Source: Sphingomonadales bacterium (GTDB lineage Bacteria; Pseudomonadota; Alphaproteobacteria; Sphingomonadales; Sphingomonadaceae). Taken from it: a stretch of 64,000 nt of DNA. The notes beneath the pieces were generated by a model that was not told where the DNA came from, searched no databases, and saw nothing but the letters and a program-made list of their open reading frames with translations. This document shows, piece after piece, positions 35,776 to 36,437 of this stretch (position 1 is the first letter of the stretch; each line of letters begins with the position of its first letter). The translations under genes were made by a program, and so were the position numbers. The stretch spans positions 1 through 64,000 of the forward strand of contig JAGWUH010000009.1 in assembly GCA_028868535.1 (NCBI GenBank). The letters run 5' to 3'.

Positions 35776-36180
35776 TCACTCATCGAATGATGCGAGGATC
35801 GGACAAGGGCCGGAGGTGCCCTTGCCGCACTCCGCCGCCAGCCGCTTCAACGAGTCGCGCGCGCGCTGAAGTTGAGCGATCTTCTCGTCCAGTGCGGTCA
35901 CCCTGGCGCTGGCGAGTTCGCGCGCCCGGCGGCGGTCTTCGCCGGCGTCGAGGTCAAGGAGTTCCCTGATTTCCTCGAGCGTGAAGCCGGCGGCCTGGGC
36001 CTGCCTGATGAAATGCAGGCGCCTGAGATCGTGGGCGCCATAGCGGCGCACCTCGCGATCGCGCGCCGGAGTCTGCAGCAGGCCGCGGCGCTGGTAGTAC
36101 CGGATCGTTTCCACCCCGACGCCGGCGGCGGCGGCAAGCTTCCCGATCGTGAGCGATTGCGCGGCTTGACTCTGTACCAT
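35776..36180 (-). CDS. MerR family metal-type regulator
   Basis: A 134-residue MerR protein: winged helix (LTIGKLAAAAGVGVETIRYYQRRGLL), a long coiled coil, and a C-terminal pair of cysteines (AECGKGTSGPCPILASF) at the metal-loop position of MerR, CueR and ZntR. The residue matching MerR Cys82 is Arg, so classic three-cysteine Hg binding is unlikely; Cu/Ag-type or another metal is possible. Its ATG lies inside the operator palindrome and has no Shine-Dalgarno, so an upstream start (36219) is an alternative. It diverges from a Cys-rich peptide gene. Confidence 0.9.
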   Translation of the reverse strand: MVQSQAAQSLTIGKLAAAAGVGVETIRYYQRRGLLQTPARDREVRRYGAHDLRRLHFIRQAQAAGFTLEEIRELLDLDAGEDRRRARELASARVTALDEKIAQLQRARDSLKRLAAECGKGTSGPCPILASFDE

Positions 36181-36196
36181 GGTACGGAGGTTATAC
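36166..36196 (+). promoter_or_regulatory. MerR-type promoter with 19-bp spacer
   Basis: TTGACT, a 19-bp spacer and TTATAC point toward the Cys-rich peptide. The spacer holds the dyad CTGTACCATGGTACGGAG, matching the CTCCGTAC-N4-GTACGGAG pattern of mercury-type MerR operators except at one base. The over-long spacer is the hallmark of promoters that MerR proteins activate by DNA distortion. The dyad also contains the ATG assigned to the MerR gene. Confidence 0.85.
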
Positions 36197-36238
36197 GGTG
36201 ATTCGCTCACCCAGAGCAACGAAAGATGGAGACGTCAC

Positions 36239-36343
36239 ATGAGCGAAATGAAGACCACGGACGAGCGGACCTGCAAGTGCGGCTGCGCCACCGGAACCGG
36301 CTGCCGCTGCAACCCGTGCACCTGCAAGAACTGCAACTGCTGA
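36239..36343 (+). CDS. 34-residue metallothionein-like cysteine-rich peptide
   Basis: Too short for the ORF track. ATG 36239 follows AAAGATGGAGACGTC, where GGAG gives a ribosome site. The peptide has nine cysteines in 34 residues, in CxC and CxxC spacing: TCKCGC, then GCRCNPCTCKNCNC at the end, with no aromatic residues. That is a metal-thiolate composition. It is shorter than known bacterial SmtA or MymT metallothioneins and I do not recognise the family. The MerR promoter directly upstream predicts metal-induced expression. Confidence 0.8.
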   Translation: MSEMKTTDERTCKCGCATGTGCRCNPCTCKNCNC

Positions 36344-36437
36344 GGACGACGCACCCCCGCCCCGTGGGCGGGGGTGCTGGTCCGATGGCCGCACCCGGCT
36401 GCAGGCAGCCCGGTCCGGCATCTCAGCGGCGCCTCGA

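Follow-up and report, generated by a model that had tools for sequence, protein, structure and literature searches.

A MerR switch of probable copper type with a mini-metallothionein-like peptide as output in a member of the Sphingomonadales

The MerR gene, its operator and the cysteine-rich peptide gene

The window, i.e. the whole stretch of 64,000 nucleotides that was analyzed, carries on the reverse strand (35776-36180) a gene for a MerR-family regulator of 134 amino acids, which was identified by Pfam, NCBIfam and alignments and starts with the ATG at 36180; an alternative TTG start would extend the open reading frame to 36219. The N-terminal MerR HTH domain and the MerR-DNA-bind dimerisation domain (PF13411 and PF09278) both score above the cut-offs; the protein clearly has the MerR fold. 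A C-x7-C metal loop and an Arg for Cys82 had been predicted, and by alignment the loop is C118-x7-C126 and Arg83 occupies the position of Cys82 in MerR and Ser77 in CueR. The best NCBIfam model is TIGR02051 MerR, but with 109.9 bits versus a cut-off of 150.85 and with Arg83 in place of the first residue of the Cys82/117/126 set, the regulator lies outside the Hg-MerR family. It also lies outside the CueR family TIGR02044 (86.8 versus 147.4 bits), and has the CueR-like C-x7-C loop, to which the partner subunit adds no third Cys, Ser77 being replaced by Arg. The closest solved structure is that of a mercuric MerR (5crl).

As predicted, a MerR-type promoter with a divergent MerR gene reads into a cysteine-rich open reading frame on the forward strand. 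The -35 element TTGACT (36166-36171, read from the sequence) is followed by a 20-bp spacer (36172-36191), which holds the operator dyad CTGTAC-CATG-GTACGG (36172-36187), and by the -10 element TATACG (36192-36197). The dyad is of the GTAC-N4-GTAC type with arms that we take to be those of the mercury mer operator; the CueR operator differs from this mer type. The evidence for the operator in the spacer comes from pattern matches, shuffles and relatives: a 30-base operator pattern gave one match in the window at up to three mismatches and none in 100 shuffles, this match is the only one across the whole assembly, and the same element precedes the targets of most related MerR genes that were read. 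An alignment of 161 related operators confirmed a conserved TATA as -10 element (positions 27-30: T.86, A.99, T.87, A.81) and, with TTGA itself being part of the searched pattern, a C in 88% and a T in 94% of the sequences at positions 5 and 6 of the -35 element. The original prediction had a 19-bp spacer in front of TTATAC; the over-long spacer holds, but the conserved TATA shifts the -10 element and puts the spacer at 20 bp (19 bp with TTATAC). Both are MerR-type lengths (PMC9909328), in line with the expectation that MerR proteins act on such over-long spacers.

The start codon of the MerR gene (36178-36180), the last ATG ahead of the HTH, lies inside the operator centre, and a TATA element on the opposite side is spaced as for a leaderless mRNA. 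The regulator's binding site thereby codes for its first residues, MVQSQ, as it does in many peptide-linked relatives. It is possible that the merR mRNA is leaderless and a self-covered transcript.

The peptide gene (36239-36343, forward strand) is the predicted 35-codon open reading frame with nine cysteines and encodes 34 amino acids plus stop (MSEMKTTDERTCKCGCATGTGCRCNPCTCKNCNC; nine Cys, no His); it is supported by a conserved core, codon changes and the stop. A Shine-Dalgarno sequence GGAG (36228-36231, forward strand) is located 7 nt upstream of the ATG. Among 86,617 open 34-codon stretches of the window, this one alone contains nine Cys. Downstream of the stop, a terminator-like GC hairpin of 12 bp without a T run (36352-36378, forward strand) has a folding energy of -40.3 kcal/mol (z -5.3), and a scan for consensus terminators found none at the peptide gene because of the missing T tract. 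Together with its homologues (6-10 Cys in 25-40 amino acids), the peptide has the short length, the richness in Cys and the CxC/CxxC spacing of metallothioneins in the functional sense, and in the absence of metal it presumably has no fold. Pfam and NCBIfam gave no match for any of 17 homologues at E<=10, HMMER being weak on such short peptides, and a PDB search with the peptide gave no match at the same threshold.

Conservation of the peptide and other outputs of the operator

Protein-level searches are nearly blind for this peptide: tblastn with the 34 amino acids found two of 61 relatives, a plasmid search nothing and a class-wide profile search the window only. The homologues were found by Cys-codon and operator patterns. 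The Cys-codon pattern CxC-x2-CxC-x2-CxC was screened over 396 Sphingomonadales genomes and the matches were then read; most of them were chance repeats and were dropped unless they stood behind the operator, so that true homologues are recognized by the shared operator and not by the peptide alone. Including loci from a named genome collection, the operator and a Cys-rich mini-ORF were found in 17 genomes (the window's and 16 others, among them Sphingomonas alba, S. segetis and S. caeni), with the operator beginning about 35-85 nt upstream of the peptide start codon. Short open reading frames of this kind had been expected behind MerR-type promoters in Sphingomonadales, and the coupling to MerR, which a lack of conservation in relatives would have contradicted, is kept as well: the MerR gene is directly divergent in 13 of the 17 genomes. 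At one locus (L066) it lies about 0.8 kb away and at three others (L069, L078, L079) no MerR was found near operator and peptide, the operator of L069 being more degenerate than the others. The peptides of L066, L078 and L079 have the operator in front of them but no MerR next to them; what is shared is therefore the operator, and the peptide belongs to a regulon as one of its members.

Six cysteines (CxCx2CxCx2CxC) are invariant in the 17 homologues and the N-terminus varies freely, while the core CxC(N/K)PCTC(K/R)NCxC is kept in 14 genomes. The Pro and Asn codons of these 14 core sequences show synonymous changes only and the stop alternates between TGA and TAA. Taken together, the invariant cysteines, the synonymous changes and the maintained stop indicate that the peptide is under coding constraint. 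A strong hairpin follows nearly all of the 17 peptide genes with a different sequence each time.

The window MerR falls within a large proteobacterial clade with a mer-like operator, a C-x7-C loop and Arg or sometimes His at the place of Cys82. R83 in combination with the loop occurs in about 226 relatives, and Arg83 is invariant in 19 aligned relatives. The operator scan revealed a site in 109 of 396 Sphingomonadales genomes versus a handful for the reversed pattern. A Grx3-MauE fusion lies behind 105 of the 134 distinct sites that were read, the Cys peptide behind 14 and copper-type or mer genes behind a few. This glutaredoxin-like target consists of Glutaredoxin and MauE according to Pfam, which is the arrangement of SmGrx3 (SMa0280) in S. 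meliloti, listed there solely as heat-shock induced (PMC6315971); on pSymA of S. meliloti a MerR of the same clade adjoins the Grx3-MauE gene. Operator and clade also drive a Cu-ATPase above the TIGR01511 cut-off in Halovibrio (L117) and Methylophaga (L126), and another ATPase of the copper P-type kind (L179) and a multicopper oxidase (L050) were found behind the operator. Mixed outputs exist as well: at L073 and L134 the Cys peptide and Grx3-MauE are both located behind one operator (at L073 in the order operator, peptide, Grx3), and at L070 the peptide is directly followed by a Met/His-rich secreted protein. The original prediction of a minimal two-gene system is supported for the coupling of MerR and peptide but not for a self-contained system, since the identical operator drives Grx3-MauE, Cu-ATPases and a multicopper oxidase elsewhere. 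Close MerR orthologues of the same genus have an identical operator without the peptide, most of them driving the glutaredoxin-like gene; with this target and the identical operator, the missing peptide was discarded as a refutation.

Several other loci with this operator or MerR were recorded. Met/His-rich (MDHSxMxGM) secreted proteins of about 460 residues are frequent operator partners (L035, L051, L070, L089, L245 and contig C59 of G000); those scanned had no Pfam or NCBIfam match, and an initial identification as CopB was withdrawn for this reason. In two genomes (L218, 1027-1494, and L220), the gene behind the operator, which has no MerR here, encodes a small membrane protein with His in its N-terminus and a weak DUF6010 match. 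The 804-base circular 'plasmid' LR606147.1 of Rhizobium sp. Q54 (L082) contains solely this MerR together with its partial Grx3 and DUF411 neighbours and is probably an assembly fragment.

Sensed metal and alternative explanations

In MerR proteins for divalent ions the partner subunit contributes a third Cys, at the position of Ser77 in CueR, and the lack of this Cys separates sensors of +1 from those of +2 ions (PMC9909328; PMC11591864). At position 83 known monovalent sensors have Ser and divalent ones Cys (PMC11591864); Arg83 is neither, and an assignment of the metal by this residue is therefore weak. Nevertheless, we consider it likely from the comparison of sequences that the window contains a copper-type MerR switch with a mini copper-metallothionein as output, because operator, MerR and Cys peptide recur together and because the same operator and clade drive Cu-ATPases, a multicopper oxidase and Met/His-rich secreted proteins. 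The combination of R83 and C-x7-C also contrasts with the Cys82 and C-x8-C loop of mer-type regulators at operator-matching sites (L186, L209, L170), and the CxC spacing, the absence of His and the 6-10 Cys in 25-40 amino acids resemble fungal Cu-thioneins. Furthermore, none of the three E1-E2 ATPases in the assembly has the CPx motif of copper pumps. This absence, like that of Grx3, which was not found either, is provisional in a genome that is 82.8% complete. Against copper, the GTAC-N4-GTAC operator belongs to the mercury mer type and not to the CueR type, and no metal is known to induce the commonest target, Grx3-MauE. Whereas the original prediction did not decide between Cu, Ag, Hg, Cd, Zn and Au, the copper genes behind the same operator and the comparison of loop and position 83 make Cu(I) our best guess for the sensed metal, and the peptide probably soaks up copper.

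According to the mechanism of the family, apo-MerR on the dyad between the -35 and -10 elements, 20 bp apart, would keep the promoter off. Cu(I), and perhaps Ag(I) or Au(I) as well, would bind to the C118-x7-C126 loop, and the metal-loaded regulator would distort the DNA and activate transcription of the peptide gene. The predicted transcript is a short monocistronic mRNA consisting of the peptide gene and the hairpin, and the 34-residue peptide may fold round the metal with its nine Cys and buffer it in the cytoplasm.

A sensor for Hg(II), or for thiophilic metals broadly, in which the peptide sequesters mercury as part of a mer-like switch without MerA and MerT, would fit the operator arms, which presumably equal those of the mer operator, and the closest NCBIfam model and structure, both of MerR of the mercury type. 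We regard this explanation as unlikely, as the third Hg ligand Cys82 is replaced by Arg, the score remains below the MerR cut-off and the mer-type regulators with a near-identical operator have Cys82 and the C-x8-C loop; moreover, none of the R83-type sites examined was seen driving mer genes and several drive copper genes. Very unlikely is a zinc-metallothionein under a Zn(II)/Cd(II) sensor, given that position 83 offers no third Cys, copper-type genes are located behind the same operator elsewhere and the peptide is without His, unlike SmtA, which contains His. It would agree with the fact that zinc and cadmium are the metals of several bacterial metallothioneins, e.g. of SmtA, which SmtB controls in cyanobacteria (PMC12193353).

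The usual target of the operator, a glutaredoxin fusion at 105 of 134 sites, could also be explained by a switch for thiol or redox stress, in which the Cys pair of MerR senses disulfide or electrophile stress and the peptide acts as thiol buffer. This seems quite unlikely to us: the regulators retain the metal loop, the switch directly drives Cu-ATPases and a multicopper oxidase elsewhere, and glutaredoxin-type genes are also part of CueR-controlled copper operons such as copZ-prxgrx-gorB of Bordetella (PMC7794356). That the very short open reading frame, for which no family model exists, arose by chance and that the promoter has another target is hardly credible in view of cysteines, stop and operator conserved in 17 genomes with synonymous changes.

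Relation to known systems and evolution

The copper-type switch proposed here shares the MerR fold, the over-long spacer and the C-x7-C loop with CueR and its copper regulon, and copper ATPases and oxidases are targets in relatives of the window MerR. It differs from CueR by Arg for Ser77, the mer-type GTAC operator, scores below the CueR model cut-offs and a mini-metallothionein as output. MerR of mer operons is closest by sequence (TIGR02051; PDB 5crl) and has the same operator arms and divergent layout, but the window system is without Cys82 and mer genes and has C-x7-C instead of C-x8-C. The SMa0280/SmGrx3 locus of S. meliloti represents the commonest arrangement of the switch with the same MerR clade and operator; its output is a membrane glutaredoxin-MauE fusion and not a Cys peptide. 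In the cyanobacterial SmtB-SmtA and BxmR systems a metal sensor also controls a metallothionein gene, but these sensors are ArsR-type repressors and not MerR activators, and the peptides are larger with other Cys patterns (PMC12193353). Fungal Cu-thioneins of Neurospora and Agaricus, with 26 amino acids and seven Cys (PMC4755600), are likewise very short peptides of CxC motifs with a different spacing (CxC-x5-CxC-x3-CxC-x2-C), and the likeness is one in kind, without a claim of common descent. The nearest functional parallel is found in Bordetella, where a small copper binder and a glutaredoxin are both under CueR (PMC7794356).

The known bacterial metallothionein genes described in the literature consulted are under the control of SmtB/ArsR-type or other repressors (PMC12193353), and we found no published case of a MerR-controlled one in the literature, which was covered mostly without subscription papers and is no proof of priority. 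Through such a system, bacterial metal defence would gain a sequestration route activated by MerR, in addition to the pumps, oxidases and reductases that MerR sensors otherwise serve. One conserved switch is seen here with interchangeable outputs: glutaredoxin, pump, oxidase or mini-thionein. Furthermore, a peptide family missed by the family libraries is now exposed, the operator pattern is specific enough to locate such genes in other genomes, and the role of Arg at the +1/+2 selectivity position becomes directly testable.

A single clade of peptide-linked MerRs was rejected in a tree of 83 MerRs (AU p 0.0002), which indicates that outputs were swapped more than once. As the peptides nevertheless share one core, either repeated movement of the peptide cassette or of the switch, or repeated loss of the peptide, must be assumed. 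Tentatively, and with somewhat less than even confidence, we propose an unannotated family of copper-metallothioneins of 25-40 residues, among the smallest known, which one copper-type MerR switch has recruited repeatedly and which in some species, including that of the window, replaces Grx3 or an efflux pump as sole output, so that copper tolerance would depend on sequestration alone. If a complete genome agrees, sequestration would be the only output of the switch in the window's species.

Two further cysteine-rich peptides were observed beside regulator genes. In a genome of the same order (G052; L077, 4983-5553), a Cys82-type MerR is divergent from the Cys-rich peptide MTEEQTCECKCGSGCECTNCDCKARDAAQCCCSSSD with a dyad of its own, apparently an independent pair of MerR and mini-thionein. 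At L076 (4955-5074, G054), a peptide of 39 amino acids with 14 Cys directly follows the gene of an ArsR-like regulator.
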